Source: a virus. Taken from it: a DNA stretch of 37,272 nucleotides. Position 1 is the stretch's first letter; each line of letters starts with the position of its first letter. The notes below the pieces were generated by a model, which searched no databases, was not told where the DNA came from, and saw nothing but the letters and a program-made list of their open reading frames with translations. The stretch spans positions 1 to 37,272 of the IMG/VR virus record IMGVR_UViG_3300043446_004447. One strand, written 5' to 3'. Made by a program: the position numbers and the translations under genes. This document shows positions 8,639-22,002 of this stretch, piece after piece.

Positions 8639-8725
8639 TGGTGGACAGGGCTAGATTCGAACTAGCGTAACCCATGGGGTGATTGATTTACAGTCAATTG
8701 GATTTAACCACTCTCCCACCTGTCC
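8639..8725 (-). tRNA. tRNA-Tyr (GUA)
   Basis: Class II tRNA: acceptor GGACAGG/CCTGTCC, discriminator A, encoded CCA, long variable arm (CACCCCATGGGTTA region), anticodon loop CTGTAAA (GUA). Confidence 0.95.
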
Positions 8726-8733
8726 ATTATTCA

Positions 8734-8883: not shown

Positions 8884-8897
8884 ATTTCCTCCGATGA

Positions 8898-8971
8898 TGG
8901 TTGAGGTGCATGGATTCGAACCACGGTAAGCAGGATCAAAACCTGCTGTCCTACCACTAGACGACACCTCA
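8898..8971 (-). tRNA. tRNA-Gln (UUG)
   Basis: Acceptor TGAGGTG/CACCTCA, discriminator A, encoded CCA, anticodon stem CAGGT/TCCTG region with loop TTTTGAT (UUG). Confidence 0.95.
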
Positions 8972-8977
8972 ATAAAA

Positions 8978-9053
8978 TGGTACGCGATGACGGGTTCGAA
9001 CCGCCGACATTCGCCGTGTAAAGGCGACACTCTACCAACTGAGTTAATCGCGC
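8978..9053 (-). tRNA. tRNA-Val (UAC)
   Basis: Acceptor GCGCGAT/ATCGCGT with a G1-U72 wobble, discriminator A, encoded CCA, anticodon stem TCGCC/GGCGA with loop TTTACAC (UAC). Confidence 0.93.
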
Positions 9054-9428
9054 GAAATAAGTTGCTTCTCCCTGCTGGTGGTCACTTTTCATCCACTTCA
9101 CAACACAGGGAGATTATCGTATTGCCAACGACCGTTCGGTTAGACGGCAGATTTCTCTGGGCATCATTGACTCATCTGCGTTGCCACAGTGAGGTGTTGC
9201 CAAACCACCCATGCTTGTCACAGCATTTCTTTATCGTCTGGGTCAGACTAGCCACTAACAATGGCACGACAAGACAGCCGAAGCGTACATTGCTGCAGAG
9301 GCTTCGGGCATATTAGATTGTTATTCGCACTATTTGCTGCGTCTCACCTTCAGGTGTCTAGAACTGAAGTTTTCTTTCGGCGCAGTTACTCAGGCGTGAT
9401 CGTGCCCATGGCTTACGAATAACAAATT
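9054..9428 (-). other. 375-base structured non-coding stretch between tRNA-Ala and tRNA-Val
   Basis: No credible ORF and no tRNA T-arm signature is present here. Several inverted repeats are visible: TCTCCCTG at 9067-9074 with CAGGGAGA at 9106-9113 (8 bp), GCAGAT/ATCTGC around 9152-9178, and CCGAAGC at 9278-9284 with GCTTCGG at 9301-9307 (7 bp). It may hold one or more stable RNAs processed from the tRNA transcript, like the RNAs C and D of the T4 tRNA cluster. It does not contain recognisable RNase P RNA or tmRNA core sequences. Confidence 0.45.
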
Positions 9429-9503
9429 TGGTGGAGGATGAGAGAATCGAACTCTCAACTCTGCGATGCAAACGCAGCGTGTTCCCATTAGCACTAATCC
9501 CCC
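9429..9503 (-). tRNA. tRNA-Ala (UGC)
   Basis: Acceptor GGGGGAT/ATCCTCC contains the G3-U70 wobble that identifies tRNA-Ala. Anticodon loop TTTGCAT (UGC), discriminator A, encoded CCA. Confidence 0.96.
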
Positions 9504-9665
9504 AAAAATGGCGTGGGCTATCGTTCGCGGCTTGTGCCACTACTAGATTATTCTCAGTCACACCCCCACGCAGCATGACTTATTCCGTTAGACCTCATGT
9601 GTCGAATAATGTTACCCATACGGACAAACTCTCACATTATCAGGATGATGCGCGCATCATCAATT
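9504..9665 (-). other. Structured non-tRNA stretch between tRNA-Asn and tRNA-Ala
   Basis: A perfect 7-bp stem GCGTGGG/CCCACGC (9565-9571 with 9511-9517) encloses 47 bases and is followed on the minus strand by CA, so it ends like a tRNA acceptor, but D-, anticodon and T-arms are missing. A perfect 18-base palindrome (GATGATGCG plus its complement, 9644-9661) begins four bases after the tRNA-Asn CCA. It could be a decayed tRNA or a small stable RNA. Confidence 0.4.
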
Positions 9666-9740
9666 TGGCTGGCGAGGATGGGATCGAACCATCGACAACA
9701 GGATTAACAGTCCTGCGTTCTGCCGCTGAACTACTCGCCA
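9666..9740 (-). tRNA. tRNA-Asn (GUU)
   Basis: Acceptor TGGCGAG/CTCGCCA, discriminator G, encoded CCA, anticodon stem CAGGA/TCCTG with loop CTGTTAA (GUU), T-loop TTCGATC. Confidence 0.95.
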
Positions 9741-9743
9741 ATA

Positions 9744-10145
9744 TTAACCATATGGCTTCAGTCCTCTGGACTTTCTGCCTTTGCCATAATTCTTTCCACC
9801 AAATGTTGGCTGTTGACTGTCGCAATTCGGACAAATCAACTGGAAATTTTCTGGTCGATTATTTGTTGCATCACCATCAATATGATCGACCCAAAGAGTC
9901 AATGGCTTTCCGCGCCACTCTGATATTTTGCAAACACTGCATGAATATCCTTTCTCTTCGGTCAGCCATTTTCTAACGATGTGTCTTGGTAACTTTTCAA
10001 TTTTACCAGACTTCCACAATTTAATTCTTTCATTTCTGGTATACGCATGTTGACATTTTGCACTACAATATAATCCTTTTGTATTAGGAACATCTTCTTG
10101 TAGTTTACCGCAATGCGTACAATTAAATGTCTTAAATATTGGCAT
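9744..10145 (-). CDS. HNH homing-type endonuclease
   Basis: 133 aa. N-terminal zinc-finger-like pairs FNCTHCGK and YCSAKCQ (about 8-30), then the HNH core: CSVCKI, LWVDHIDGDATNNRPENFQLICPNCDSQQ (His of the DH motif, Asn, and CxxC zinc ligands). This is a small Zn-HNH enzyme of the kind that moves as a free-standing homing gene. It lies inside the tRNA cluster between tRNA-Trp and tRNA-Asn, three bases from the latter, a common insertion place for such genes. AGGA precedes the ATG. Confidence 0.9.
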   Translation of the reverse strand: MPIFKTFNCTHCGKLQEDVPNTKGLYCSAKCQHAYTRNERIKLWKSGKIEKLPRHIVRKWLTEEKGYSCSVCKISEWRGKPLTLWVDHIDGDATNNRPENFQLICPNCDSQQPTFGGKNYGKGRKSRGLKPYG

Positions 10146-10200
10146 TTTGTTTCCTAGTAGAACACTCTATAGGTATATATAGGAAACTACCCCAAAAAAC

Positions 10201-10276
10201 TGGCACCGCAGGAGAGACTCGAACTCCCAACAACTGGTTTTGGAGACCAGGATTCTACCAATTGAACTACTGCGGC
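10201..10276 (-). tRNA. tRNA-Trp (CCA)
   Basis: Acceptor GCCGCAG/CTGCGGT with a G1-U72 wobble, discriminator G (normal for Trp), encoded CCA, anticodon stem CTGGT/ACCAG with loop CTCCAAA (CCA). Confidence 0.95.
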
Positions 10277-10282
10277 AAAAAT

Positions 10283-10357
10283 TGGCGGTCTGTACGGGAA
10301 TTGAACCCGTCCTACGAAAGTGACAGTCTCGTGTACTCACCGATATACGAACAGACC
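10283..10357 (-). tRNA. tRNA-Asp (GUC)
   Basis: Acceptor GGTCTGT/ACAGACC, discriminator G (normal for Asp), encoded CCA, anticodon loop CTGTCAC (GUC), T-loop TTCAATT. Confidence 0.94.
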
Positions 10358-10363
10358 AAAAAT

Positions 10364-10443
10364 TGGTGGGTCCACTGAGATTCGAACTCAGAACAACTGG
10401 GTAAGATCTTACCCAGTTATGATAGCCATTTCACCATAAACCC
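10364..10443 (-). tRNA. tRNA-like gene with a palindromic, enlarged anticodon arm
   Basis: Acceptor GGGTTTA/TGGACCC, D-arm GTGA/TCAT, T-arm CTGAG-TTCGAAT-CTCAG, discriminator A and encoded CCA are all normal. The anticodon region is a perfect 24-base palindrome (AACTGGGTAAGA plus its complement, 10395-10418). It can fold into a 9-bp or longer stem with only GATC in the loop; with a normal 5-bp stem the loop would be 12 bases. The only anticodon preceded by U33 in that loop is CUU (Lys). Decoding identity is therefore unclear; it may be a pseudo-tRNA, a decoy, or a tRNA with an insertion. Confidence 0.7.
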
Positions 10444-10607
10444 ATAACAAATAAAATTGCAGCGGCGAAAGTCCCACCGTCTTTCACTTCACAAGCGTGG
10501 AATCTCCTCATAAAACTATTGCGAATGACCGCCACCTGCTACCGCAAGCACTTCGCTCTTTTTGGCGGATTGTCGTATGAAGACTACTGCAAAAACCTTT
10601 TCAATAT
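10444..10607 (-). other. Structured non-tRNA stretch between tRNA-Lys and the palindromic tRNA
   Basis: The 164 bases are closed by TTGCAG (10457-10462) with CTGCAA (10587-10592). Inside are CCGCCA (10529-10534) with TGGCGG (10563-10568) and a GAAAG/CTTTC hairpin around 10467-10485. No tRNA arms are seen. A 26-codon frame with ATG near 10515 exists but has no convincing ribosome site. A stable RNA or processing element is possible. Confidence 0.35.
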
Positions 10608-10682
10608 TGGTGAGACCACTGGGACTCGAACCCAGAACTTACTGGTTAAAAGCCAGTTACTCTACCATTGAGTTATGGTCTC
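10608..10682 (-). tRNA. tRNA-Lys (UUU)
   Basis: Acceptor GAGACCA/TGGTCTC, discriminator A, encoded CCA, anticodon stem ACTGG/CCAGT with loop CTTTTAA (UUU). Its anticodon stem is the same as the outer part of the palindromic arm in the tRNA at 10364-10443. Confidence 0.95.
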
Positions 10683-10702
10683 AAAAATAACATAACAAAA
10701 AT

Positions 10703-10777
10703 TGGTGAACCCAAGGGAATTCGAATCCCTATTCTTACCGTGAAAGGGTAATGTCCTAACCGTTAGACGATGGGTCC
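10703..10777 (-). tRNA. tRNA-Glu (UUC)
   Basis: Acceptor GGACCCA/TGGGTTC with one G-U, discriminator A, encoded CCA, anticodon stem TTACC/GGTAA with loop CTTTCAC (UUC). Confidence 0.94.
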
Positions 10778-10785
10778 AAAAATCA

Positions 10786-10899
10786 CCATATGGAAGCACA
10801 CTATGGAAACTGTGCCTTGTCATTGACATGCCTAACATTTCCGACTACCGTTGAGCCGACGCATCGAGTCTCGCTGGACGATAGTGTGCTTCAATATGG
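10786..10899 (-). repeat. Long inverted repeat (19-base arms) between tRNA-Thr and tRNA-Glu
   Basis: CCATATGGAAGCACACTAT at 10786-10804 pairs with ATAGTGTGCTTCAATATGG at 10881-10899; 18 of 19 positions pair, around a 76-base loop. The upstream arm (in transcription) includes the CCA end of tRNA-Thr. It is far longer than a tRNA acceptor stem. Likely roles are an RNase III-type processing stem or a stable RNA released from the tRNA precursor. Confidence 0.65.
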
Positions 10900-10972
10900 T
10901 GCCTTCAGAGAGACTCGAACTCCCAACCTACTGATTACAAATCAGTTGCACTACCAGTTGTGCTATGAAGGC
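10897..10972 (-). tRNA. tRNA-Thr (UGU)
   Basis: Acceptor GCCTTCA/TGAAGGC, discriminator A, encoded CCA, anticodon stem ACTGA/TCAGT with loop TTTGTAA (UGU). It is the first tRNA of the cluster in the direction of transcription. Confidence 0.95.
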
Positions 10973-11319
10973 GAATTGATACCTGCCCCAACTCCCGCAG
11001 AATATCGTGACTCACCGCGCAAGAATATGCGCAATAGAGTCTTACCCAAAAAATCATATTTTTTAAAGAGCAAGAGCAATCGCAGAGGACGCTCTATCAA
11101 TCAACCTTATAGACATATTCTAGCCCACAAGGGTGCAAATTACAACACTAAAAACTTTAGTAAAATCAACAACTTGCAATTTACACAAAAAGGTTCGCAG
11201 TTTTCGGTGCGGAGGGAGAATTCAAATGGCACCTTGGAACACTTCGTTCTACCTCATAAATGCGAGGGAGTCGCGAAACACTCTAGGAAATTAAATCTCA
11301 GCAGATTATATAGTACAAA
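10973..11319 (-). other. Leader and promoter region of the tRNA cluster
   Basis: About 350 bases without a credible gene. It holds the promoter-like element at 11117-11178 and then a leader of about 135 bases before tRNA-Thr. A second A/T-rich run (TTTAAAAAATATGATTTTTTG, minus strand, near 11060) may be another promoter part. Upstream of the promoter, 11197-11319 shows a weak GGTGC/GCACC hairpin and nothing else that I can assign. Confidence 0.5.
11117..11178 (-). promoter_or_regulatory. Bipartite promoter-like element, tRNA-cluster copy
   Basis: Minus-strand order: GCAAGTTG, TTGATT (11164-11169), 18 bases, TTGTAA (11140-11145), 17 bases, TAGAAT (11117-11122). The last two fit -35 and -10 boxes. 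The TTGATT block and the 18-base spacing recur in four other copies (15571-15630, 18938-18999, 19265-19325, 19327-19386). It would drive the tRNA cluster. Confidence 0.65.
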
Positions 11320-11484
11320 TCACTCATCATATGCACTTTTAATTGCCATAACAATACTTGCAACTTGCCAAAGCACAAGAGCAGTGAACAACCACCCAAT
11401 CCATTCACCACGGTTCATGATTGCCAAAACGACATTCATAATCAGAAAGCCAATGTCAATCAAGAACGCAAGAGTATAACTCAT
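11320..11484 (-). CDS. Small two-helix membrane protein, 54 aa
   Basis: Starts MSYTLAFLIDIGFLIMNVVL, has a turn NRGEWIG and then a second helix WLFTALVLWQVASIVMAI before the tail KSAYDE. Its ATG overlaps the stop of the upstream small membrane gene (ATGA), which supports real translation. The two products share a layout (helix, Asn/Arg-Gly turn, helix). The function is unknown. Confidence 0.65.
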   Translation of the reverse strand: MSYTLAFLIDIGFLIMNVVLAIMNRGEWIGWLFTALVLWQVASIVMAIKSAYDE

Positions 11485-11630
11485 GACAAATTTTCTCTAA
11501 TCAACCACAATAAGAATAATGCAGATAAGACAAGAACAACACCCAACAATGTTCCACGATAATAGTACCCCAAGCCAATGTTCATAACGACCAAAAGCCA
11601 GTCAGTCCATTTCACCGCAGTGTTAGGCAT
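11481..11630 (-). CDS. Small two-helix membrane protein, 49 aa
   Basis: Starts MPNTAVKWTDWLLVVMNIGL, turn YYYRGTLLG, second helix VVLVLSALFLLWLI, tail RENLS. The ATG lies inside the last codons of the 66-aa gene upstream (8-base overlap), and the stop overlaps the next ATG. These two tandem small membrane genes and the 66-aa gene form a compact translational unit. Confidence 0.65.
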   Translation of the reverse strand: MPNTAVKWTDWLLVVMNIGLGYYYRGTLLGVVLVLSALFLLWLIRENLS

Positions 11631-11823
11631 ACTCAACCACCTTGTCTAGACGCTTCATGGGCTGAGAACATTTCCCCGCCTTTCGCATCTGAGTCTGATA
11701 TTCTATCGTACAATCGAAGCAGATGTCAAGCACTTTGCTATTCTTGATCGCAACGATCTCAGTCTGATACAATTTCCACTGCTTGTCGGAAAAGCAAGAA
11801 GGTTTATTCAATACCGTCTTCAT
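11623..11823 (-). CDS. Hypothetical protein, 66 aa
   Basis: MKTVLNKPSCFSDKQWKLYQ start, then LDICFDCTIEYQTQMRKAGKCSQ with CxxC and a further Cys, which could bind one zinc. Basic and soluble. It overlaps the Api92-like gene upstream by 20 bases, without a clear ribosome site, so translational coupling is likely. Phage proteins with 'C.dC...yq..M...GkC' are known as hypothetical; the role is unknown. Confidence 0.65.
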   Translation of the reverse strand: MKTVLNKPSCFSDKQWKLYQTEIVAIKNSKVLDICFDCTIEYQTQMRKAGKCSQPMKRLDKVVEYA

Positions 11824-12304
11824 CTTCGCTTTCTTCCTTATGCATGCTATAACTTTCGCTGATACCAGCCCACTCGTTCAGATCTTCGGGGATTGCGTCG
11901 ATGCTTTCTTCATCTTCGAAATCATATTCCCAACAGTAGTCAATACCTTCGGAGAACATTCCCACGAATGCCATTCCACATTCATGATACTTTGCCTGCA
12001 CTGACCAACCTTCTTCTTCCAGGTATTCATAGAGCGCAATCGGTGGACCCCATGCAGTATCAAACGACAACTGCAATGTCTCATCGTCAATGCGTTCGAA
12101 ACTATACGGCTCTGCGTCCCACTTTGTCCCCCAGTTTTCTGTATTCCACTCATACCAATGGTCTTTGTGGCTTTCTGGACGAGGACGAAGAACATTAAAG
12201 AACTTCTCGCTCTTATCTTCTGTTTGCAATGCAGCAACAAGAAGATCAATATGTTCTTTTGTCGGCGCAATTAACAGCACATCATTGTTACACCAATTCG
12301 GCAT
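11804..12304 (-). CDS. Api92-like (DUF1281/YubB-type) protein
   Basis: 166 aa. It opens MPNWCNNDVLLIAPTKEHID and has WYEWNTENWGTKWDAEPYSF at about residues 50-70, the two signature blocks of the Api92-like/ferredoxin-fold family found on phages and plasmids. The C-terminus is strongly acidic (EDEESIDAIPEDLNEW, KEESEDEDGIE). The family has no established activity. It is a diverged paralogue of the protein at 5077-5652. Confidence 0.85.
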   Translation of the reverse strand: MPNWCNNDVLLIAPTKEHIDLLVAALQTEDKSEKFFNVLRPRPESHKDHWYEWNTENWGTKWDAEPYSFERIDDETLQLSFDTAWGPPIALYEYLEEEGWSVQAKYHECGMAFVGMFSEGIDYCWEYDFEDEESIDAIPEDLNEWAGISESYSMHKEESEDEDGIE

Positions 12305-12305
12305 T

Positions 12306-12848
12306 TTATTCTCCCTCTACAAAGTTAAAATTAATCACACAACGAAATCTCTGATCTGTACAAGAACTGCCCGTATGTTGGATGTTGCCATCAAAAATAC
12401 AAATTCTGTTTGCTACAGATTCTACCTTTTGCCCATTTTCAAATGATGTAAATCCATTATTGGTATTGACATAATACACTGCTGTCTTAAATTTAAAAGC
12501 AGCCTCAACATCTGTATGCATTCCATATAGAATAATAGATGGAGTGATGGGTGTCAGGTTTGCTTTAATGCGCAGCGGTGCCTTAATCTTTAGTCGATCA
12601 TGAAATGGATATATCGCGCTTACATGATCACTAACATAAGGTTGTGTTTGATCAAACTGACCATAGAACATATGAGTGAATTGATAGTTGTAGACATTAT
12701 TATCATTATCTTGTCCAACCTTCGAATTATGAATATACCATGGAAGCGCATCTAGATGATTTTCCACATTAATGGAATCTAGCATCTTGTGCCTCAATGT
12801 CTCATATTCTTCTTGCGGAAGAAAATTATCAATGACTTGTATTGACAT
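12306..12848 (-). CDS. 2OG-Fe(II) oxygenase 2
   Basis: 180 aa. MHTDVEA gives the HxD iron pair (H111, D113), IQHTGSS the distal histidine (H158), and QRFRCVINFNF the 2-oxoglutarate-binding Arg (R167 or R169). VYYVNTNNGFTSFENG is the usual middle strand pair. Relatives are common in T4-like marine phages. The substrate is unknown. The ATG at 12848 is chosen over a GTG four codons upstream because GGAAG lies before it. It follows the Api92-like gene's ATG region with one base between genes. Confidence 0.85.
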   Translation of the reverse strand: MSIQVIDNFLPQEEYETLRHKMLDSINVENHLDALPWYIHNSKVGQDNDNNVYNYQFTHMFYGQFDQTQPYVSDHVSAIYPFHDRLKIKAPLRIKANLTPITPSIILYGMHTDVEAAFKFKTAVYYVNTNNGFTSFENGQKVESVANRICIFDGNIQHTGSSCTDQRFRCVINFNFVEGE

Positions 12849-12865
12849 TATCGCTTCCACTCATA

Positions 12866-13063
12866 TCACTTCACTCCAAAATGATTCTTGATCTGTTCTT
12901 TGATGTGTATGCCTCTTACTGATTCTGGATTGTCCCAGAATGCTTTGTAGGCAACATCACCACATTCGCCGACAATCAATTCACTAAATCGTTGCATGGT
13001 TGCATAGTAATCAGTTGTTTCAGCGAATGCTTGATCGTGCAATTTCTTGATTCGTTCGTTCAT
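12866..13063 (-). CDS. Conserved small phage protein, 65 aa
   Basis: MNERIKKLHDQAFAETTDYY, then FSELIVGECGDVA and IKEQIKNHFGVK. This 'MNeRIkeLaeqA...FAeLIv.EC..i......IkehFGv' pattern is widespread in small phage proteins without a known role. Its ATG overlaps the upstream stop (ATGA). Confidence 0.85.
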   Translation of the reverse strand: MNERIKKLHDQAFAETTDYYATMQRFSELIVGECGDVAYKAFWDNPESVRGIHIKEQIKNHFGVK

Positions 13064-13308
13064 CGCACACCTATCTTTTCGACATAATAGCCAACTCGAT
13101 CAGTTTCATATTTCTTATTTTGTTTTTTGCAATACTTGTTGGCGTCGTCTTTGACTTTGAAAATTCCGTCGATTCTTTCGTAAGATGCACGATCGTAATC
13201 CGTGTCTGACTGGATCACGACATAAACATAAGAATCAAATTTGTTTTTCCGTTCCGTTTTCTCTTTCGATTTCTTTTTCCGAACCAGCGGTTGCATCTTA
13301 TTGGTCAT
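13060..13308 (-). CDS. Hypothetical basic protein, 82 aa
   Basis: Lys/Arg-rich N-terminus (LVRKKKSKEKTERKNKFD) then YVYVVIQSDTDYDRASYERI and a Lys-rich tail. It may be a small nucleic-acid-associated protein, on charge only. Coupled by ATGA at both ends to its neighbours (13305-13673 upstream, 12866-13063 downstream). Confidence 0.65.
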   Translation of the reverse strand: MTNKMQPLVRKKKSKEKTERKNKFDSYVYVVIQSDTDYDRASYERIDGIFKVKDDANKYCKKQNKKYETDRVGYYVEKIGVR

Positions 13309-13673
13309 GACGCCACCTTGTATTTCTCAGCAGTGTGTCGCACCCACGCAGCAGCAGATGCGGAATCATCATCCCAATCTGCATGCGGATCATAATGACC
13401 CAAGATTTCTTCAGTCGTCATCAAATCATCCAGATATGTGCGACCGAATTGCGCAAGACGATCTTGCACATCTTCGCACACAAAGTCAGAGTCCCATCCG
13501 AACTCTGATTGAAATGCATCGCAGTGGTCGCAAGAACCAAATGAACCTTGCACCCAGCCGAGCGCACCTTCATAGACCACCAAAGCAATCCATGAACCTT
13601 GCCAGTCACCAAAAGAATCGAATACTAGCACATTCGCGCCAGCAGCCTCTAATGCTTGTCGATAATCACTCAT
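13305..13673 (-). CDS. Conserved phage protein, 122 aa
   Basis: MSDYRQALEAAGANVLVFDS start and GWVQGSFGSCDHCDAF at about residues 39-54. I recall this acidic, Trp-rich family with 'GSYGSCs.CDaf' from many tailed phages, always without a function. The CDHC pair may bind a metal. It is linked by ATGA overlaps to the genes on both sides. Confidence 0.8.
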   Translation of the reverse strand: MSDYRQALEAAGANVLVFDSFGDWQGSWIALVVYEGALGWVQGSFGSCDHCDAFQSEFGWDSDFVCEDVQDRLAQFGRTYLDDLMTTEEILGHYDPHADWDDDSASAAAWVRHTAEKYKVAS

Positions 13674-14074
13674 TTTTTACTCACGGCACCGACATGCTTG
13701 CAATCTTTTCTAAACTCGAAACCCTTACACGAGCAACTGAACTTGCCATTCACTCGCTGAACAAGATAGACTCGCTTGCCATCTTCGCTCTTAACTTTCC
13801 ACGCCTTTGTGTCGGTCGCGACTTTACTCGCACCACCGATGATGTATTCAATCCGAACAACATGTTGCGACTTGGCGTTGAACTCCGATACAGGATGATC
13901 AGGTGCACCAGTCTCAACTGCGAACATGAATGGATCGTTGAAGATGGACTTCACAACCAAACCTTCGCGTGTGTTGGTGACATAATTGTCATCCTTGCCA
14001 CGATAGGCATAGGTGTTCGGATACATCGTCGTGACGCGCACTCGCGAACCAATCTTCGGAACTGCAATAGCCAT
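13670..14074 (-). CDS. SWIM-type zinc-finger protein
   Basis: 134 aa. The N-terminal half (MAIAVPKIGSRVRVTTMYPN) looks like a small beta-barrel. The C-terminus, VNGKFSCSCKGFEFRKDCKH, gives CxC...CxH, the SWIM zinc-finger signature used for DNA or protein contacts. A regulator or DNA-binding adaptor is a reasonable guess. It abuts the upstream oxygenase stop (1-base overlap) and overlaps the next gene by ATGA. Confidence 0.8.
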   Translation of the reverse strand: MAIAVPKIGSRVRVTTMYPNTYAYRGKDDNYVTNTREGLVVKSIFNDPFMFAVETGAPDHPVSEFNAKSQHVVRIEYIIGGASKVATDTKAWKVKSEDGKRVYLVQRVNGKFSCSCKGFEFRKDCKHVGAVSKK

Positions 14075-14688
14075 TATGTGATCTCCAAATAAGCAGCAGG
14101 AGCAACAAACTTACCCTTTAAGAAAAAATTGAAAGACAACGATACTCTATCTTCATTTGATCTATTTCTTAGAACTTGATGCGGCACTGAAGAAGGGAAT
14201 ATTAATATCATTCCTTCTCTGGCATCAATAGAGAAAAATTTAGAATTAAACTCATTTTGCCTTTCGATCTTTGGAACCATAATATCAGTTAGATTACTAT
14301 TGCCGCGAGAAAATCTTATCCCGCCAGAATTTTTTGGTACTCTTAAATAGACAACACCACTGAATATTGAGTTGCCGTGTGTATGCATTCCAGACATATC
14401 ATTTGGAGTAGAAAGAAGAAGCCACGATGAACTCAATGCAGGATATGTTTCTTTGCTATATCCATAGACATCATAGTACAAATGATTCATGTGCTCAACA
14501 ATCTGCGTCCGCAGAAATTCGAATTTCGGTACATTCAATATCTGCTCATTGTCACTAACTGATGTGGTATCATGAGTCATTTTCTGAAAATTTTCATCTA
14601 AATGTCCATCAGTTATTCCACTGATGTCTACTTCCGACATATAAATCGGAGTTGCAAAAACCCTTTGAATTTCAAAGGGCAAATGCAT
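14074..14688 (-). CDS. 2OG-Fe(II) oxygenase 3 (2OG-FeII_Oxy_5-like)
   Basis: 204 aa. RVFATPIYMSEVD near the N-terminus, MHTHGNSIFSGVVYLRVPKN (H102/H104), then FPSSVPHQVLRN and DRVSLSFNFF are typical of the TIGR02466/2OG-FeII_Oxy_5 group, which is frequent in cyanophages. The iron ligands would be a His in HTH and the His of VPHQ; the Arg of DRVSLSFN binds 2-oxoglutarate. Start set by the TAATG junction with the upstream gene; a longer TTG start is not needed. The substrate is unknown. Confidence 0.85.
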   Translation of the reverse strand: MHLPFEIQRVFATPIYMSEVDISGITDGHLDENFQKMTHDTTSVSDNEQILNVPKFEFLRTQIVEHMNHLYYDVYGYSKETYPALSSSWLLLSTPNDMSGMHTHGNSIFSGVVYLRVPKNSGGIRFSRGNSNLTDIMVPKIERQNEFNSKFFSIDAREGMILIFPSSVPHQVLRNRSNEDRVSLSFNFFLKGKFVAPAAYLEIT

Positions 14689-15002
14689 TAGAGTCCCACC
14701 CAACGATGATTCTTGTACGACTCGGTGTTCAGCACATTACCGCGAGCAAAATTCTTCGCAGGTTGAGCCCACGATGCTGCCTTCAGAATGTCGCCATACT
14801 TCCAGCCATCGTGCTCTTTGATGCAAATAAAAGAATGCACCGACCGCGAACCCCAAGAGTTGGAGACAACCTTCAGAAACTTGCGACCACGATCAAACGA
14901 AACTTGATACTGACCTTCTGAACCTGTCTTGTTATAGGTTGCAACAAGATGATCGGCATACTGATAGAGAGCCATGTCAAAGTCATAATTTTCGAACAAC
15001 AT
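14688..15002 (-). CDS. Conserved phage protein, 104 aa
   Basis: Contains GRKFLKVVS, SRSVHSFICIKEHDG and GDILKAASWAQPAKNFARGN, blocks I recall from many T4-like and other phage proteins of this length with no assigned activity. TAATG junctions on both sides show it is part of the same translational chain. Confidence 0.85.
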   Translation of the reverse strand: MLFENYDFDMALYQYADHLVATYNKTGSEGQYQVSFDRGRKFLKVVSNSWGSRSVHSFICIKEHDGWKYGDILKAASWAQPAKNFARGNVLNTESYKNHRWVGL

Positions 15003-15193
15003 TAGAGAACCTCCAAGTCATCAGCAATCACTGCACCGTAGAGAAAGAACAAAGTCGCCCATGTGCTTTCGCGGACACCATACTTCTCGCGTTTCTGCTC
15101 ATAGACTTTCTTGAACAGATAATCATCACCGACAGCGTCGGCATAATCTTGCGCAGCGAGAAGAAAAGATTTTGAAGATTTCAACTTGATCAT
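15002..15193 (-). CDS. Hypothetical protein, 63 aa
   Basis: MIKLKSSKSFLLAAQDYADA...STWATLFFLYGAVIADDLEVL. The ATG at 15193 is one base after the upstream stop and the stop overlaps the next ATG (TAATG). The frame is open further upstream, but that part is antisense to well-formed sequence of the 15195-15563 gene. The family is not recognised. Confidence 0.65.
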   Translation of the reverse strand: MIKLKSSKSFLLAAQDYADAVGDDYLFKKVYEQKREKYGVRESTWATLFFLYGAVIADDLEVL

Positions 15194-15194
15194 A

Positions 15195-15563
15195 TCAACC
15201 CCAATTCTTCCCACTGATATAACCAAACGGAACATCCAACGCAAACTCAAGTGCCTCGACATCACCATGCGTCTTGTGGAAGTCATGAAGATATTCGATG
15301 AATTGCTTGCGACCGAAACCTTCCTTCGCGTTTTCGATGAAACTCGCGCGAGTCTCGAAGTCTTCAATTGCTTTCTTCTGACGCGCCTCTTCGTCGCGTA
15401 CAGATTCGCGCACGGCATCCACGAGCGCATCCCACAGACGCTGCTTGGCATCGTCGTTGCAGGCATTCCAATCAGCCCAGAAGAATTCGCTCGGACGATG
15501 TCCGTAGGCGTCCTTGTAAAGATCAGAGACGATATTTTCGTCGAATGTATATTTCGTTTCCAT
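15195..15563 (-). CDS. Conserved phage protein, 122 aa
   Basis: METKYTFDENIVSDLYKDAYGHRPS, FFWADWNACNDDAKQRLWDAL and a helical middle. It belongs to a common phage family of unknown role with 'LYKDayGfRPs..f...w'. It is the first gene after a promoter-like element whose -10 box ends eight bases before this ATG; no ribosome site is visible, so the mRNA may be nearly leaderless. Confidence 0.8.
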   Translation of the reverse strand: METKYTFDENIVSDLYKDAYGHRPSEFFWADWNACNDDAKQRLWDALVDAVRESVRDEEARQKKAIEDFETRASFIENAKEGFGRKQFIEYLHDFHKTHGDVEALEFALDVPFGYISGKNWG

Positions 15564-15570
15564 AGTCGAG

Positions 15571-15630
15571 ATTCTACAGCAAACTCCGAAAAATACAACA
15601 GGGAAAACTCTAATAGAATCAACAACTTAC
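15571..15630 (-). promoter_or_regulatory. Bipartite promoter-like element, copy at 15.6 kb
   Basis: Minus-strand order: GTAAGTTG, TTGATT (15617-15622), 18 bases, TTGTAT (15593-15598), 16 bases, TAGAAT (15571-15576). It faces the 15195-15563 gene and its downstream chain. Confidence 0.65.
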
Positions 15631-15733
15631 GAGACCGAGGGAGAAGCCCCGAGAGCGGCGTGTTTTTACCCTTCCCCCAACCCTTCCTCGGGTCGGAAAA
15701 CGGCTCGAAACGGCTCTCGCTCGGTGGGTGGTT
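15631..15733 (-). other. GC-rich structured intergenic segment
   Basis: About 100 bases, much richer in G and C than the surroundings. Contains CGAGAGC near 15648 with GCTCTCG near 15713, CCCGAG/CTCGGG, and a direct repeat ACGGCTC at about 15697 and 15707. It lies just downstream of the 15734-15919 stop and upstream of a promoter copy, so a transcription terminator or boundary is possible. No U-run follows, so it is not a classic terminator. Confidence 0.35.
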
Positions 15734-15919
15734 TTATCGGTAGTCTTCGATCGAATAATCGTCTTCGAAGTCATCAAGATCATCTTCTTGACTTTCTTCC
15801 ATGTAGTCACGATTCGGACGGAACCGCCATCGTGCTTCATCTTTGAGTCGTCGTTGCTTCAGTCCTTCAGTCTTGCGATTTTCGCGATCACGAGACTGAT
15901 CTGTGTAACGCTTTGACAT
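15734..15919 (-). CDS. Small highly charged protein, 61 aa
   Basis: MSKRYTDQSRDRENRKTEGL, then KQRRLKDEARWRFRPNRDYM and an acidic tail (EESQEDDLDDFEDD). A basic half followed by an acidic half is a profile seen in small T4-like cyanophage proteins with 'MSKRYTDQSRDRe.RK'. No function is known. Its ATG follows the metalloprotease stop by one base. Confidence 0.75.
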   Translation of the reverse strand: MSKRYTDQSRDRENRKTEGLKQRRLKDEARWRFRPNRDYMEESQEDDLDDFEDDYSIEDYR

Positions 15920-15920
15920 T

Positions 15921-16451
15921 TTACTTCTTCACATCCTCTTTCAATTTATGACAAAAGATCTTATACAGACCCAACTCTCGTCCATAGGCTTCAATTTCCC
16001 ACGGACTATCGTAATACAATTCTTCGTTTTCTTGATACTCAGAACTGAATACAATTCCTTTGTGACGAACATCACCGTTCGTATAATCGAACATTTCATT
16101 TAAAAGATATTGCTTCACATGAACCAATTCATGACCCAAATCAATAAGAAGATTCTTGAGACGAATCTGTGACTTCTTGGCTTTTCGGTTTACAGTATGT
16201 GCGTTCAGAACGATTGTGAATTTCTTATTGCCAAAATCATCTGAACCGTCGTAAGTGCACCATGCCTTGTATGTCTTCAGATCAAGAAGATCAGCAGCAG
16301 TTTTCATTTCTTCTTTGTTGAGCACTTTGATGGTGACACGAGACTTATTCTGGATGCCTTTGCGAACGAGGCGATCCAGAACAAATCGAGCATACTTGCG
16401 GATCATATCTTTATCTTCTGATCGCAAATGAGCACTAGTGATGTTTAGCAT
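15921..16451 (-). CDS. SprT-like zinc metalloprotease
   Basis: 176 aa. LGHELVHVKQYLLNE holds the HExxH zinc motif (H107, E108, H111), and SPWEIEAYGRELGLYK supplies a downstream Glu that could be the third ligand. The fold resembles SprT/WSS1-type proteases; several phages encode such a protein with this exact 'HELVHVKQ...PWEIEAYG' pairing. The target is unknown. It is adjacent, without a gap, to the 367-aa gene upstream. Confidence 0.8.
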   Translation of the reverse strand: MLNITSAHLRSEDKDMIRKYARFVLDRLVRKGIQNKSRVTIKVLNKEEMKTAADLLDLKTYKAWCTYDGSDDFGNKKFTIVLNAHTVNRKAKKSQIRLKNLLIDLGHELVHVKQYLLNEMFDYTNGDVRHKGIVFSSEYQENEELYYDSPWEIEAYGRELGLYKIFCHKLKEDVKK

Positions 16452-17555
16452 TTATTCCACTCGGAGTAGAATTGTATCCTTGTTGATTCGACCATTCAAT
16501 TCTTGCGGCTTTGCATTAATTTCGTTCATGACCTTTCGCAAAACAATCTTGCCGCCATCCAGGACTCGCGACAGGACATCCTTTGGCTTTCGGAGAGTCT
16601 TTGCGATCGACTCCGAATATTTATAATTTTCGATTGTCGAACCCTTAACCGAAAGACCAGCACTGTCGGAAGCCACATAGACTCCGAGTTTGCGCGTCTT
16701 CACATTATACACCCAGAGTTTCTCAGCACCCATGATCTTCACAGGATTAATCGAAACGAGTTTGTTCTCGGTGTCCTCGGTCTTATACTTCAGACTCTTG
16801 ACCTTCTTCTCAAACGAGACTGCCTTCTTCTTTCGCGGCTTGCGAGCAGCATTCTTGTTCGAAGCCAGTTTCTCAGCATCGGTTGCAACCGCACCAAAGA
16901 ACTTCGCACCTTCAATCATTTCTTTCTTCGGGCGCGGATATGATTCCTTCACATAATCATCTTTCGACTCAATGATCGCAATCCAATCTGCTGTGCGCTT
17001 CTTGAAATATTCTGCAATCTTCGAAGCATGCATCGGCTTCACTTCGTTTTCGATCATCCAAGTGTAGGCGACGAATTCTTCTTTCGAACTACGATGCCAA
17101 ATCTCATCGAACTTGGCTTCCAGTTCCATTATGTAATAATCAACCTTGTTCTGCACTCGCTCTTGAATTGAGATCACATTGCTAGTCTCGACGACTGCAG
17201 GTGTGTTCAACCCACGCTCGGCAACGATCGCATCTAGACGAGACTTGAATGTTGCGATTCGTTCTTGAAATGAAACAAGGTTGTTCTGCGGGACTTTTGC
17301 ACCGCGCATGAGCAGTCGTGCAAACCAACCGTCGACAATATTCCAAGAATCGTTCAGATATTGCGCGGCTTGTTTTTGGACTGCGCTAATCTTGTTGTTC
17401 TTGGAAAGATACTCAAGCAAATACTTGCGCGCATCTTTCTCAGTCTTATTGTCGTTATACCATTGAAATGCGCGCACAAGATCGAACTGTGTGCACACGG
17501 TCGTTTGAGCCTCCCAAGTCGGCTCGGGGATTACCTTGGGAATATACTTTGCCAT
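16452..17555 (-). CDS. Conserved phage protein, 367 aa
   Basis: Starts MAKYIPKVIPEPTWEAQTTV. The first 220 residues are helical. A Lys/Arg-rich stretch (KNAARKPRKKKAVSFEKKVK, about 235-255) separates them from a C-terminal part with LWVYNVKTRKLGVYVA and DGGKIVLRKVMNEINAK. The basic linker suggests nucleic-acid contact. Similar proteins occur next to the metalloprotease and AAA+ genes in T4-like phages (recalled); no activity is assigned. GGAG lies upstream of the ATG. Confidence 0.75.
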   Translation of the reverse strand: MAKYIPKVIPEPTWEAQTTVCTQFDLVRAFQWYNDNKTEKDARKYLLEYLSKNNKISAVQKQAAQYLNDSWNIVDGWFARLLMRGAKVPQNNLVSFQERIATFKSRLDAIVAERGLNTPAVVETSNVISIQERVQNKVDYYIMELEAKFDEIWHRSSKEEFVAYTWMIENEVKPMHASKIAEYFKKRTADWIAIIESKDDYVKESYPRPKKEMIEGAKFFGAVATDAEKLASNKNAARKPRKKKAVSFEKKVKSLKYKTEDTENKLVSINPVKIMGAEKLWVYNVKTRKLGVYVASDSAGLSVKGSTIENYKYSESIAKTLRKPKDVLSRVLDGGKIVLRKVMNEINAKPQELNGRINKDTILLRVE

Positions 17556-17586
17556 GATTCTATCTTACTCCAGCAAGAGTTAAATT

Positions 17587-17820
17587 TCAAACCTGTACAA
17601 ATTTAACTTTAACAATCTTGAATCCTTTTTTGTTTAGGATTCGCCATGCGCGTTTCGGACCACCAATACCACGAACCCACATTTCACCCCAACAACCTAT
17701 CAATTCAGCAACATAACTCGCGCTAGAATCACGCAACCACTCTTTGTTAGTAGAAGGGTGAATGCTACTAATCAAACCACGAGGACCACGAACAGCCCAA
17801 AATGTAGTACGCTTGCTCAT
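17587..17820 (-). CDS. Hypothetical protein, 77 aa
   Basis: Starts MSKRTTFWAVRGPRGLISSI with GGAG ten bases upstream. The middle TNKEWLRDSSASYVAELIGCW and the end KKGFKIVKVKFVQV are those of a small alpha/beta protein that I have seen as unassigned in phages. The longer frame upstream overlaps the AAA+ gene and is not used. Thirty bases separate it from the 367-aa gene. Confidence 0.7.
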   Translation of the reverse strand: MSKRTTFWAVRGPRGLISSIHPSTNKEWLRDSSASYVAELIGCWGEMWVRGIGGPKRAWRILNKKGFKIVKVKFVQV

Positions 17821-17822
17821 AA

Positions 17823-18695
17823 TTATACTCCACGAAAACAAGTTTGACGCGCAAGTTTCTGCCAATTCACTTTGTCCATTTTATACAGACCAGCAATCTT
17901 GCAGACCATGCGCAACGACAACTCACGCAGACGATCGATATTGTTTTCAATAAACTGAAGAATTAACACAGTCTCAACTTCGTTGAATCCGCGAGACTTC
18001 AGCATACCACCACGCACAACCTGCTTGATGCGAACAAGATAATCCATCTTCGTCTTCATCGCAAGATCAAGATAGTGCGAACGGGAAACCAACGCAGCAA
18101 AGTGCGGCGCAAGTTTGCTACCTGACTCGATCATGTTATCGAAATCGTAGTTGGTGATGAAGATGATCGAACCTTCAAACTCAAACTTCTCAGGCACGCT
18201 CTCGCCATCTTCGTCGGTCTCATTATCTAGAGACTTTGACAACCAATGCAGAACACGACGATCAGTCGAGTCGCACGCACCCTTCAGCAAATTCATGCTC
18301 ACATCGTCGTGAAAGATCGAGTCAGAGTCGTCGAACACAAGAATAGAATTGTGAAAACGAGAATTGTACAACAGTTTGTACAGCGAGAGCGGACGCACAT
18401 AACCTTTAATGTAGGTGGTGTGGAATCCCTTCTTTTCCAATTCCGCCATCTTCTGCTCAACCGTGTAGGACTTACCGAGTCCTGCAGGACCAGAAACGAT
18501 CAACGAACGATTGATGCCGCGACCAGTGGCGTCTGCCATGACCTCAAGAGCACCAAACCGATCAGCAAGTTTGGTTTCAATTTCTTCCAGCGACTCAACG
18601 CGCACAGGAATGCTCGGTGCGCTTTTCGGCGCAAATTGAGCAGCCATGCGCTTGCGCGTCATGCGGAAACCAGATTTCGGTACACCTCGCGGCAT
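17823..18695 (-). CDS. AAA+ ATPase
   Basis: 290 aa. Walker A GPAGLGKS at about residues 69-76, Walker B ILVFDDSDSIF at about 117-127, sensor-1 like IIFITNYDFDN, and a basic N-terminus (MPRGVPKSGFRMTRKRMAAQ). This is a conserved phage P-loop ATPase, loosely related to clamp-loader/DnaC-type proteins. It may act on DNA or remodel proteins; the target is unknown. Its ATG overlaps the upstream stop (TAATG). Confidence 0.85.
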   Translation of the reverse strand: MPRGVPKSGFRMTRKRMAAQFAPKSAPSIPVRVESLEEIETKLADRFGALEVMADATGRGINRSLIVSGPAGLGKSYTVEQKMAELEKKGFHTTYIKGYVRPLSLYKLLYNSRFHNSILVFDDSDSIFHDDVSMNLLKGACDSTDRRVLHWLSKSLDNETDEDGESVPEKFEFEGSIIFITNYDFDNMIESGSKLAPHFAALVSRSHYLDLAMKTKMDYLVRIKQVVRGGMLKSRGFNEVETVLILQFIENNIDRLRELSLRMVCKIAGLYKMDKVNWQKLARQTCFRGV

Positions 18696-18931
18696 TAGAT
18701 TTTCACCTCAGAATAATCGCCAGAATAATTGTCCCAATTGTCCATGATATAGGTTAAGACCTCACGCTGAAATGCGGACAATTCTTGGGTTGTTGCTGTA
18801 TCGTAGTCGGGGTCGGTTGGCCAATCGAATCCCAACCGAACTGCGTCGTATTTTAAACTGTTAATTGAAGTGATAGTGGCGGCGCGGTACGCTGCCTCGG
18901 TTTTAAAGTGGGCGTGTAACATGTTTTTCAT
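18695..18931 (-). CDS. Hypothetical protein, 78 aa
   Basis: MKNMLHAHFKTEAAYRAATI and a Tyr/Asp-rich end (IMDNWDNYSGDYSEVKI). The ATG at 18931 lies about seven bases downstream of a -10-like GAGAAT, so this may be a nearly leaderless message; M4 could also serve. The family is not recognised. TAATG couples it to the AAA+ gene. Confidence 0.65.
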   Translation of the reverse strand: MKNMLHAHFKTEAAYRAATITSINSLKYDAVRLGFDWPTDPDYDTATTQELSAFQREVLTYIMDNWDNYSGDYSEVKI

Positions 18932-18937
18932 ATTGTT

Positions 18938-18999
18938 ATTCTCTCTTATTTTAGATAAGAACGCAACAGGAATAATTCTTGTAAAATCAACAAGTTACC
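18938..18999 (-). promoter_or_regulatory. Bipartite promoter-like element, copy at 18.95 kb
   Basis: Minus-strand order: GTAACTTG, TTGATT (18985-18990), 18 bases, TTGCGT (18961-18966), 17 bases, GAGAAT (18938-18943; a TAAAAT also lies at 18948-18953). It overlaps the stop of the 18995-19213 gene and faces the 78-aa and AAA+ genes. Confidence 0.65.
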
Positions 19000-19213
19000 A
19001 AAACAGCCCAAACAGACTTTCAAATTCTTCGGTGCCACCAACATCGTAGCACTTCACCACTTTGCCCCTGCGCTTCACAACTAGGTCGTAACTGTCTTCC
19101 CTGATACTGACTTCGTCGCCTTTATAGGTTGCCGTGATATAGGTGTATTCACCTATCGTTTTCGGTTTCCAGTTCGCGTTTTTTAAAATTTCTAACGCTA
19201 TTTTACTAGCCAT
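18995..19213 (-). CDS. Hypothetical protein, 72 aa
   Basis: MASKIALEILKNANWKPKTI, beta-rich middle (YTYITATYKGDEVSIREDSY) and CYDVGGTEEFESLFGLFW end. Good ribosome site (AAGGAAGG). The family is not recognised. It is the first minus-strand gene below the divergent promoter region. Confidence 0.7.
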   Translation of the reverse strand: MASKIALEILKNANWKPKTIGEYTYITATYKGDEVSIREDSYDLVVKRRGKVVKCYDVGGTEEFESLFGLFW

Positions 19214-19264
19214 TTTTTTCTTCCTTCCTTTGCCGTGGTTTGCGGCTTTCCTTTCAACTCTACG

Positions 19265-19325
19265 AGTTTACAGCATCCCACTAGCAATAGCAACAGGAAA
19301 AAACTGAATAAAATCAATAACTTAC
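19265..19325 (-). promoter_or_regulatory. Bipartite promoter-like element, minus-strand copy of the divergent pair
   Basis: Minus-strand order: GTAAGTTA, TTGATT (19312-19317), 18 bases, TTGCTA (19288-19293), 17 bases, TAAACT (19265-19270). It gives a leader of about 45 bases before the 18995-19213 gene. Confidence 0.65.
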
Positions 19326-19326
19326 G

Positions 19327-19386
19327 CAACTTGTTGATTTATAAGGCTTTTTTTCTGTTGCGTACCCCAGCGAAATGCTCTAAAAT
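19327..19386 (+). promoter_or_regulatory. Bipartite promoter-like element, plus-strand copy of the divergent pair
   Basis: Plus-strand order: CAACTTG, TTGATT (19334-19339), 18 bases, TTGCGT (19358-19363), 17 bases, TAAAAT (19381-19386). It is the only copy on the plus strand and precedes the only plus-strand gene. The two divergent copies meet head to head, forming an inverted repeat around 19310-19342. Confidence 0.7.
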
Positions 19387-19426: not shown

Positions 19427-19663
19427 ATGGATAATGTCATTGAACTACCTTACGCCAACCCTGTGAACGGTGAAATCTTTCGCCTGATCGGTCGCGATAA
19501 TTATGAGATGCTGATGGAAATGTATATCGCTATCGTTGACGACGAGTTTGATGATTGGTTTGATTTCTACTGCGAGTTTGATGGCTATATTGAGCACTGT
19601 GAAAACTTATCTAAACTCGCTGATGAAATTGCGCGTATGTTTAATGAAATGACTCTGAACTAA
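19427..19663 (+). CDS. Highly acidic small protein, 78 aa; the only plus-strand gene
   Basis: MDNVIELPYANPVNGEIFRL, then DDEFDDWFDFYCEFDGYIEH and an amphipathic helix. I count nineteen Asp/Glu against four Lys/Arg, so the net charge is about -15. This resembles DNA-mimic or anti-restriction-type proteins in composition only; no motif supports a specific function. It has its own copy of the bipartite promoter, a palindrome near the start site, an AGGG ribosome site, and a strong terminator six bases after its stop, so it is a free-standing transcription unit. Confidence 0.8.
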   Translation: MDNVIELPYANPVNGEIFRLIGRDNYEMLMEMYIAIVDDEFDDWFDFYCEFDGYIEHCENLSKLADEIARMFNEMTLN

Positions 19664-19714: not shown

Positions 19715-20920
19715 TTAGAACGCATAATTTAGATCAAGTTGTAGGCGATTATAGCCACGATTTGAAATCATCTTCATCGTTGCTAATGTTGCTGGTGGAG
19801 TCACAATTGCAACTGCCGACGGAACATTGATATTTGTTTCGTTGACAAAATATGTTGCATTGGCTTTCCAACCTTTCGATACTTGGTAAGCAGCACGGAA
19901 CGCATGTCCCTGTGATTCTGTGTTACCACCACCGAAATCAGAATCAACCCACTGTCCAAACAATGCATCTTTCTCAACCTTCTGGTGAAGGTATCCAACT
20001 TCCCAAGAACCAGGAAGGGATGCTTTGCCGAGTGTAACACCATATGCAAGAGCATTCTTGAATTTTGGTGCCTTATCGTTTTTTGCCCAATCAACAACAA
20101 GTGTGGCTGGTAGACCAGCAACCTTTGTGTTTACTTCAGCAAGTGCATTTACAACATCATAATCGTATGCAAGACATGATGCACCAGCAGCACAACCAGA
20201 TGACTTTGTTGTGTTACCGAATACACCATTGATTGTTGCTTGAGTGACGGTCTGATTCTTAACTGCTTTGTGGTTGAAATAACCAACAGCAACAGTCATA
20301 TTAGAGTCATCATTCAAACGATTCTTCATACCGATTTGATAACCAACTAGGCGAGTATCAACTGCAGATGCGCGCTCGATTAGATCTGTAGCGAACACAT
20401 TTGCAAAGATGCCTGTTGGTGCGTGGTTTAGCGCAACTGCTGCACCTTCTGGGTTGACATCCTTATCAAAGAAATAAGAACTTGTTGTCACCCATGGGTA
20501 CTTCATCTTACCTAGTGTTACCTTGGCAAGTGCGTTTGGTTGCCACTCAACATATGCTAGATCGAGATCTAGTGCTTTCTTCGAGTTAGCGTCACCGAGT
20601 GTCTGATTGCCTGAACGAGCATCACCATTTTCTGTAGTTGTGAAACCAACTTCAACTTTGGTGTTGTCATTTACGGCAGCAGTTGCACTCAAACGAACAC
20701 GAATACGATCACGATTGCGATCTACTGGATTGTATTGTTGAGTGATGTTTTCGTTGCGAAAACGAAAGTCACCCTTCCACTTCCAGCGAGTCGCAATATC
20801 TTTGGCAAGAACATCAGACAAGTTGTCAACAGATGCTTGAACATCTGCTGCACTTTGTGCAAATGAAGTGCCGCCGATCATAGATCCCAAAATAACAAAT
20901 GCTAGAATTGCTTTACGCAT
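19715..20920 (-). CDS. Outer-membrane porin (putative Porin_5-type)
   Basis: 401 aa. A Sec signal peptide MRKAILAFVILGSMIGGTSF ends near residue 22. A short helical stretch (VQASVDNLSDVLAKDIATRW) is followed by FRFRNENITQQYNPVDRNRD and repeated amphipathic beta strands with alternating aromatic ends. The chain ends LQLDLNYAF, with the C-terminal Phe needed for BAM-dependent insertion. It resembles bacterial 'putative porin' proteins of about this length. In the cassette with PstS, an anion or phosphate channel is the simplest role, but selectivity cannot be read. AGGAG precedes the ATG; 26 bases separate it from pstS; a strong terminator follows. Confidence 0.88.
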   Translation of the reverse strand: MRKAILAFVILGSMIGGTSFAQSAADVQASVDNLSDVLAKDIATRWKWKGDFRFRNENITQQYNPVDRNRDRIRVRLSATAAVNDNTKVEVGFTTTENGDARSGNQTLGDANSKKALDLDLAYVEWQPNALAKVTLGKMKYPWVTTSSYFFDKDVNPEGAAVALNHAPTGIFANVFATDLIERASAVDTRLVGYQIGMKNRLNDDSNMTVAVGYFNHKAVKNQTVTQATINGVFGNTTKSSGCAAGASCLAYDYDVVNALAEVNTKVAGLPATLVVDWAKNDKAPKFKNALAYGVTLGKASLPGSWEVGYLHQKVEKDALFGQWVDSDFGGGNTESQGHAFRAAYQVSKGWKANATYFVNETNINVPSAVAIVTPPATLATMKMISNRGYNRLQLDLNYAF

Positions 20921-20946
20921 ATCCTTCTCCTATCAATACCGCGAAA

Positions 20947-22002
20947 TTACGGCGAAAAGTTTTTGAGTGACTTCACATCTGCCTTTGTTTTTGCAAGTTC
21001 AGATTTACTCAATGGCACCAAGCCACGGTCAGAAAGATATCCTTCCGTACCTGCTGCCTTGTCACTCACATACTCATCCATAAATTCTTTCATGCCAGGA
21101 ATCGTACCAATGTGCGCTTTCTTGACATAAACGAACAATGGACGAGATGTCACATATTTAGTTGAAGCAATTGTTTCGAAGGTAGGGGCAACTCCATCGA
21201 TTGCCAAACCTTTGATTTTATCAGCATTTTCTTCAAGAAAACTGAAACCAAAAATACCGAGAGCCTCTGGTTTTGCTTCAATCTTCTGAACGATTAGATT
21301 ATCGTTCTCACCTGCTTCAACATATACACCGTCTTCACGGATTGTATCACAAATTCTTTTGAATCTCTTTTCATCCAAATCTTTGACACCTTTGATCCAA
21401 GGATAAGTTGAACAACCTGCTTCCATGAACAACTCAACAAAAGAGTCGCGTGTTCCAGAAGTTGGTGGTGGACCAAGAACTTCAATCTTGACTGCTGGCA
21501 AAGATGGGTTTACATCTTTCCATGTCTTGTATGGATTTGGAATCAACTCACTCGTGTTTGCTGGATTTGGTACTTGCTTTGCGAGTGCAAGATAAACATC
21601 TTTGCGAGTGAGCGCATTGAGTTTTCCTTTCTTTGACTCAGCAATCGTCAAGCCATCGTAACCAATTTTAACTTCAACAATTTCTTTTACACCCTTTTGT
21701 TGGCACTCAGCAAACTCTGCTGGCTTCATGCGGCGTGATGCGTTGACCATATCTGGGAATTGTGGACCAACACCATTACAAAATAATTTCACACCACCAC
21801 CTGTGCCAGTGCTTTCCACTTTTGGTGTCTTGAACTTGCCTTGACGACCAAATTGTTCAGCAACAGTTGTAGTGAATGGATAGACTGTTGATGAACCAAC
21901 AATCATAATTCCATCACGACCTGCTTGCGCATGTGCGAATGGTGCGAGTAGAATGCTTGTGAAAGCAATACTGGCTAAAGATGCTAATATTCGATTTTTC
22001 AT
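20947..22002 (-). CDS. pstS: Phosphate-binding protein PstS
   Basis: 351 aa, full length. Signal peptide MKNRILASLASIAFTSILLA...AHA (cut near 26). Phosphate-site blocks: IVGSSTVYPF (about 34-43), STGTGGGVKLFC, NASRRMKPAE, GYDGLTIAES, PPTSGTRDSFVELFM and a C-terminal SRPLFVYVKKAHIG. It would sit in the periplasm and deliver phosphate to the host PstCAB transporter, since no pstC, pstA or pstB gene is in the window. GAGGAAG lies upstream of the ATG. It follows the PlcP-like gene by 15 bases and precedes the porin, so one message is likely. Confidence 0.95.
   Translation of the reverse strand: MKNRILASLASIAFTSILLAPFAHAQAGRDGIMIVGSSTVYPFTTTVAEQFGRQGKFKTPKVESTGTGGGVKLFCNGVGPQFPDMVNASRRMKPAEFAECQQKGVKEIVEVKIGYDGLTIAESKKGKLNALTRKDVYLALAKQVPNPANTSELIPNPYKTWKDVNPSLPAVKIEVLGPPPTSGTRDSFVELFMEAGCSTYPWIKGVKDLDEKRFKRICDTIREDGVYVEAGENDNLIVQKIEAKPEALGIFGFSFLEENADKIKGLAIDGVAPTFETIASTKYVTSRPLFVYVKKAHIGTIPGMKEFMDEYVSDKAAGTEGYLSDRGLVPLSKSELAKTKADVKSLKNFSP

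Follow-up and report, generated by a model that had tools for sequence, protein, structure and literature searches.

The action of the host protein integration host factor (IHF) at single phage promoters is already known. In the gene transfer agent (GTA) of Caulobacter, a sigma70 promoter carries an IHF site upstream of its -35 box and IHF is needed for expression (PMC11150451), and host IHF has a positive effect on the early promoter Pe of phage Mu (IHF effects on Pe are cited in PMC3820752). A review of T4 early promoters makes no mention of IHF at all (PMC2988021). Here, we analyze a viral DNA stretch of 37,272 bases (IMG/VR record IMGVR_UViG_3300043446_004447, complete, hereafter the window), in which five promoter-like elements share a conserved block upstream of the -35 box. 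We propose, with a probability of about 0.7, that these elements are sigma70 promoters of early genes and of a tRNA cluster, at which host IHF would be bound against the -35 box and would activate transcription by bending the DNA.

A conserved block at a fixed distance from the -35 box

A sequence-only reading of the window had described five copies of TTGATT-N18-TTG, followed after 16-17 bases by a TANAAT-like box. All five are in place with the TTG exactly at offset +24, and the spacing to the last box holds in each of them, but the box of copy 3 (GAGAAT) is a poor likeness. The pattern TTGATT-N18-TTG has six matches in the window against 1.6 expected, a number reached in 0 of 100 shuffles; the sixth match (3135-3161, minus strand) is attributed to chance, as its flanks share nothing with the five copies. 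The window is a fragment of a larger genome, and the proposed search of the full genome was therefore carried out on relatives, which, together with motif-bearing contigs, yielded 176 nonredundant copies. We found the shared block to be longer than described, running from offset -9 to about +19 relative to TTGATT (GTAAGTYRTTGATTYTATTAGRGTTTTT), with the five-copy consensus C-G-Y-A-A-S-T-Y-R-TTGATT-YTATTAGRG-TTTTT and then the -35 box at +24 and the -10 box at +46/47. As had been claimed, this block is better conserved than the -10: several of its columns reach 2.0 bits in the 176 copies versus 0.5-0.9 bits for the -10, whose information content is partly blurred by 1-base slips.

A -10-like box follows 145 of the 176 copies, mostly at offset 46-48, although a few of these copies belong to upstream arrays and have their box by accident, so that the true number of promoters is somewhat below 145. 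In 126 of the 145, a spacer of 16-17 bases follows a -35 placed at offset 24 or 25, and the common boxes are TTTACT/TTGNNT and NATAAT with a spacer of 17 bp, within the 16-18 bp of sigma70 promoters. This regularity supports the suggestion of -35/-10 promoters read by host RNA polymerase, and the five copies resemble promoters of host sigma70 that have a protein site at a set position upstream.

The exact 28-base block pattern is present in 101 viral contigs, and most of the motif-bearing contigs that we fetched share many proteins with the phage clade of the window, while some share few or none. The relatives were fetched via the AAA ATPase encoded by the window and not via the motif, and thus form a sample unselected for the unit; they carry it at the AAA ATPase gene and also elsewhere in the genome. 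In a 197-kb relative (G002), 14 unit sites lie at about ten promoters, and no unit was found in its structural gene block (108-187 kb). In more distant relatives (G009, G011, and L027-L031), a variant of the unit, GTAACYYRTTGATTCTAAAGGA, forms arrays with a spacing of 25 bp. On a contig without clade proteins (L202:5394, minus strand), a unit precedes TGGCATGGCTTGTGCA, close to a -24/-12 box of the sigma54 type. A looser pattern, TTGWTGATTT-N14-YYCTGTTG, gave mostly chance matches in viral contigs, with true units at only 2 of 47 loci.

Relatives also carry extra units head to tail upstream of the promoter unit. We counted 46 nonredundant tandem distances, which occur at 25-29, 36-39, 45-50, 55-58, and 62 bp, with none at 30-35, 40-44, or 51-54 bp, and their best period is about 9.8-10 bp (permutation p = 0.0008, distinct spacings only). 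Such helical phasing points to a complex of protein and DNA that has one defined face. Window copies 4 and 5 stand back to back, 17 bp apart, an arrangement also seen in L183 and L024, and four phages with few or no proteins of the clade (L152, L186, L213, and L227) have two facing units 46 bp apart. We searched for a further conserved element upstream of the unit, as in the Caulobacter GTA, and found none.

A simpler explanation is that the T-tract and AT-rich block form a plain UP element that binds the C-terminal domains of the polymerase alpha subunits, with no further factor involved. T4 early promoters have the order UP/-35/TGn/-10 (PMC2988021), and both the T-tract and the position at -59 to -38 suit contacts of this kind. 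We nevertheless consider this explanation improbable, because the best conserved bases (GTAAGT..TTGATT) include both G and C and extend as far as about -68, past the UP region, because an exact 14-base string is not required by UP elements, and because the upstream units repeat with helical phase.

The block as a candidate IHF site

The complementary strand of the block reads CTAATARAATCAAYRACTTAC and contains AATCAA-N4-TTR. The IHF consensus is WATCARNNNNTTR (PMC8421141), and 98.3% of the 176 copies match it at one register, whereas at least 90% was reached in 0 of 3,000 column permutations. The core WATCARNNNNTTR is present in all five window copies. In the relatives that were not selected by motif, each base fixed by the consensus shows 0-3 deviants versus 54 intact copies. 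Variation is found at the N positions, and at the R of TTR it is nearly confined to the two bases that the consensus allows. The T-tract (offsets 15-19, 82-96% T per column) reads as an A-tract on the IHF strand and is separated from AATCAA by 9 bp; A-tracts have a described role at IHF sites (PMC8421141), and the unit has one in the left arm, as most strong IHF sites do. The unit is asymmetric, without palindrome, dyad, or repeated half-site, as expected for the IHF heterodimer. The upstream half-site about two helical turns from the -35, which the sequence-only reading had assumed, thus gives way to a complete, non-palindromic IHF-type site of about 28 bases, and the 24 bp amount to 2.3 turns. 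BLASTN of the consensus promoter against cultured phages returned only matches of E = 0.2-0.6, which are not evidence; judged by eye, the three that we inspected do agree with the IHF consensus.

Many near-identical copies per genome and across phages could also mean that a mobile promoter cassette was dispersed and its copies kept alike by recombination instead of by a binding protein, as has reportedly been proposed for the PeSL early promoters of T4-type phages. We regard this as highly improbable. The copies differ in their flanks and even in the spacer and the -10, yet single positions of the unit are invariant, and position-specific tolerance and helical phasing are signs of selection on binding; independent sites with unrelated flanks that keep the invariant bases, which a cassette does not predict, are already largely seen.

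We looked for IHF/HU genes (PF00216) and found none in 14 phage records. The nearest chromosomal relatives of a porin encoded in the window are mostly proteobacterial metagenome-assembled genomes, which suggests a proteobacterial host lineage, and genomes of this candidate lineage carry 2-3 PF00216 members. Because of this distribution, the factor is most likely host and not phage IHF. The bound factor would activate transcription rather than repress it.

Chromosomes also carry the unit. When we searched 398 Pseudomonadota genomes for the 21-base unit with at most one mismatch, we obtained 24 matches versus 3 for a reversed control, and in 7 cases the match directly adjoins the 3' end of a gene for tRNA or transfer-messenger RNA (L266, L273, L275, L276, L279, L280, and L283). 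At these seven, WATCAA-TTR points away from the RNA gene, which is the order of the lambda H' site relative to the core. This placement suits attachment sites of integrated elements, where IHF acts, but they may be integrase sites instead. At one of them (L283), a nearby open reading frame (ORF) resembles, as read by eye, the N-terminal part of tRNA-site integrases.

The main rival to host IHF is a phage-encoded sequence-specific activator or repressor, MotA-like or new, that binds the unit, its likeness to an IHF site being coincidental. Phage regulators commonly bind repeated operators of this kind, and the unit is concentrated in one phage clade and conserved beyond the IHF consensus. Several observations count against IHF: the spacer (CTATTAG) and some N positions are more conserved than the consensus demands, and where the consensus has W, nearly all copies show A on the IHF strand and no copy shows T. 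It also counts against IHF that the copies are partly related by descent, that the host is deduced from one porin gene only, and that IHF covers a 35-bp site in crystals (PMC8421141), so that neighboring sites at spacings of 25-28 bp may not be filled together. Still, we judge a phage factor unlikely. The unit lacks a dyad or repeated half-site, its fit to the IHF consensus goes beyond any column permutation, and it also occurs in phages that share few or no clade genes and beside chromosomal tRNA genes. In addition, a MotA homologue (PF09114) was not found in 6 relatives by a search that is insensitive to distant relatives.

We therefore favor host IHF and propose the following mechanism. Host sigma70 RNA polymerase would read the promoter class, with the IHF heterodimer occupying the upstream unit from roughly -75 to -40, its A-tract beside the -35 and its WATCAA/TTR half facing outward. 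By bending the DNA sharply, IHF would fold the upstream DNA back along the polymerase, and the folded DNA could recruit or stabilize polymerase at the mediocre -35/-10 boxes. Tandem, helically phased extra units would extend the wrapped structure. The promoters would thus drive prereplicative genes and the tRNA cluster.

Predicted start sites, target genes, and the tRNA leader

The sequence-only reading had missed that the predicted transcription start often coincides with a start codon. Six nt downstream of the -10, where +1 usually lies, we found ATG in 68 of the 145 promoters and ATA in 29; with gaps of 5-7 nt counted, ATG is present in 77 of the 145, including window copies 2 and 3. An ORF of at least 40 codons is opened by 60 of these 77 ATGs, versus 25% of all ATGs in G002 and the window. 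In most pairs of leaderless and leadered homologues, the start codons lie within 0-2 residues of each other. A peptidase-like family begins MKTNLQASKSILAKLL in its leaderless copies and MTNLQASKSILAKLM behind a Shine-Dalgarno (SD) leader in L163. The family of ORF 15195-15563 (ten members) is mostly of the leaderless type, and its SD-led homologue in G008 starts at the same residue; the family of ORF 18695-18931 has ATG at the predicted +1 in 8 out of 8 members. Because the ATG at the predicted +1 mostly opens a real gene, with start codons confirmed by homologues, we predict leaderless mRNAs. In roughly half of the promoters, the mRNA appears to begin at the start codon; many starts would fall on the A of ATG, and others on the A of ATA, giving short SD leaders. 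At the AAA ATPase gene in four places (G002:65163, G013:16530, L007:4334, and L008:7916), the ATG at the predicted +1 begins a conserved ORF of 8 codons, which terminates at the start codon of the AAA gene or just ahead of it.

Each of the five copies aims at a gene or at the tRNA cluster, as had been proposed, with the cluster and four ORFs lying downstream of them. Copy 1 (minus strand) has its unit at 11150-11178 (IHF-consensus core at 11164-11176, AATCAACAACTTG on the plus strand; T-tract at 11150-11154) and its boxes at 11117-11145 (-35 TTGTAA at 11140-11145, -10 TAGAAT at 11117-11122, spacer 17), with a predicted +1 at about 11110. Downstream, at 3020-10972 (minus strand), lie the 22 tRNA-like genes of the window (ARAGORN), tRNA-Thr first and with ORFs interspersed. 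The leader between copy 1 and tRNA-Thr holds a boxA-like string, TGCTCTTTAA (11063-11072, minus strand), about 40 nt after the predicted +1, which matches the core of boxA, the rrn antitermination element, exactly. The leaders of the tRNAs in G014, L015, and L160 contain similar strings, and the string would suit antitermination of the long tRNA cluster by host NusB/S10. The RNA fold of this leader is no better than that of shuffles.

Copies 2, 3, and 4 are also on the minus strand. Copy 2 (unit 15603-15631, IHF core 15617-15629; boxes 15571-15598, -35 TTGTAT, -10 TAGAAT, spacer 16) precedes the 122-aa ORF at 15195-15563 (minus strand, phrog_21968), with ATG at the predicted +1. Copy 3 (unit 18971-18999, IHF core 18985-18997; boxes 18938-18966, -35 TTGCGT, weak -10 GAGAAT, spacer 17) precedes, likewise with ATG at the predicted +1, the 78-aa ORF at 18695-18931 (minus strand), followed by the AAA ATPase gene at 17823-18695. 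Copy 4 (unit 19298-19326, IHF core 19312-19324; boxes 19265-19293, -35 TTGCTA, -10 TAAACT, spacer 17) has an ORF with an SD leader downstream (18995-19213, minus strand). Copy 5, on the plus strand (unit 19325-19353, IHF core 19327-19339; boxes 19358-19386, -35 TTGCGT, -10 TAAAAT, spacer 17), is followed by an ORF at 19427-19663 (plus strand).

Besides the tRNA-like genes, the window encodes a B12-type ribonucleotide reductase, a primase, and the AAA ATPase (phrog_1250), which has relatives in 1,236 phage records, mostly of large phages of enterobacteria, vibrios, and Acinetobacter. G002 has genes for DNA polymerase, tail sheath, baseplate, and an SbcC-like protein. On the basis of this gene content, together with the AAA ATPase relatives, we call the clade probably T4-like. 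At 19715-22002 and 29869-31419, the window also encodes a Porin_5 protein with an adjacent PstS-like phosphate-binding protein, and a tryptophan halogenase, all of which are likely host-derived metabolic genes.

Comparison with known systems

In our literature search, in which most subscription journals lay outside the search, we found no description of this promoter class, and the core strings were not printed in any phage-promoter context that we found. What appears to be new, with no report found, is a phage regulon with an IHF-type site fixed against the -35 at many promoters per genome and in phased arrays. Our broadest proposal is tentative and somewhat doubtful: a lytic phage lineage may have placed its early regulon under host IHF through phased arrays abutting the -35, with start sites at AUG, so that much early translation would be leaderless, and with an rrn-like boxA behind the promoter of its tRNA cluster. 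If true, this would link the takeover of the cell by the phage to a nucleoid protein of the host that varies in level with growth phase, and it would provide well over a hundred natural promoters for testing DNA bending next to RNA polymerase, as well as a large collection of phage mRNAs predicted to be leaderless.

Among described promoters, those of the T4 early class, from a phage of probably the same superfamily, likewise have sigma70 -35/-10 boxes preceded by a conserved stretch on the upstream side of the -35. T4 relies on UP elements and an extended -10, whereas the upstream block here is a specific string (PMC2988021), and no TGn column is conserved among the collected copies. In T4 middle promoters, a MotA box at -30 takes the place of the -35; the units differ from these in that the conserved block ends upstream of a -35 and PF09114 was not found in the 6 relatives. 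The H' site of lambda attP has the same parts in the same order, an A-tract, 8-9 bp, and WATCAA-N4-TTR (the gap is 8 in H' and 9 in the unit), but it is a recombination site and not a promoter. The Caulobacter GTA is alike in its phage-type gene set, its sigma70 promoter, and its IHF site upstream of the -35; there, IHF sits between the core promoter and a far-upstream site of the activator GafY and helps this distant activator, whereas here the IHF-type unit abuts the -35, without a conserved element further upstream, and recurs in tandem and at many promoters. Mu Pe is alike in that host IHF acts positively on a phage early promoter, as is predicted here. That case is a single promoter with one site, whereas the arrangement described here is regulon-wide and keeps a fixed distance.

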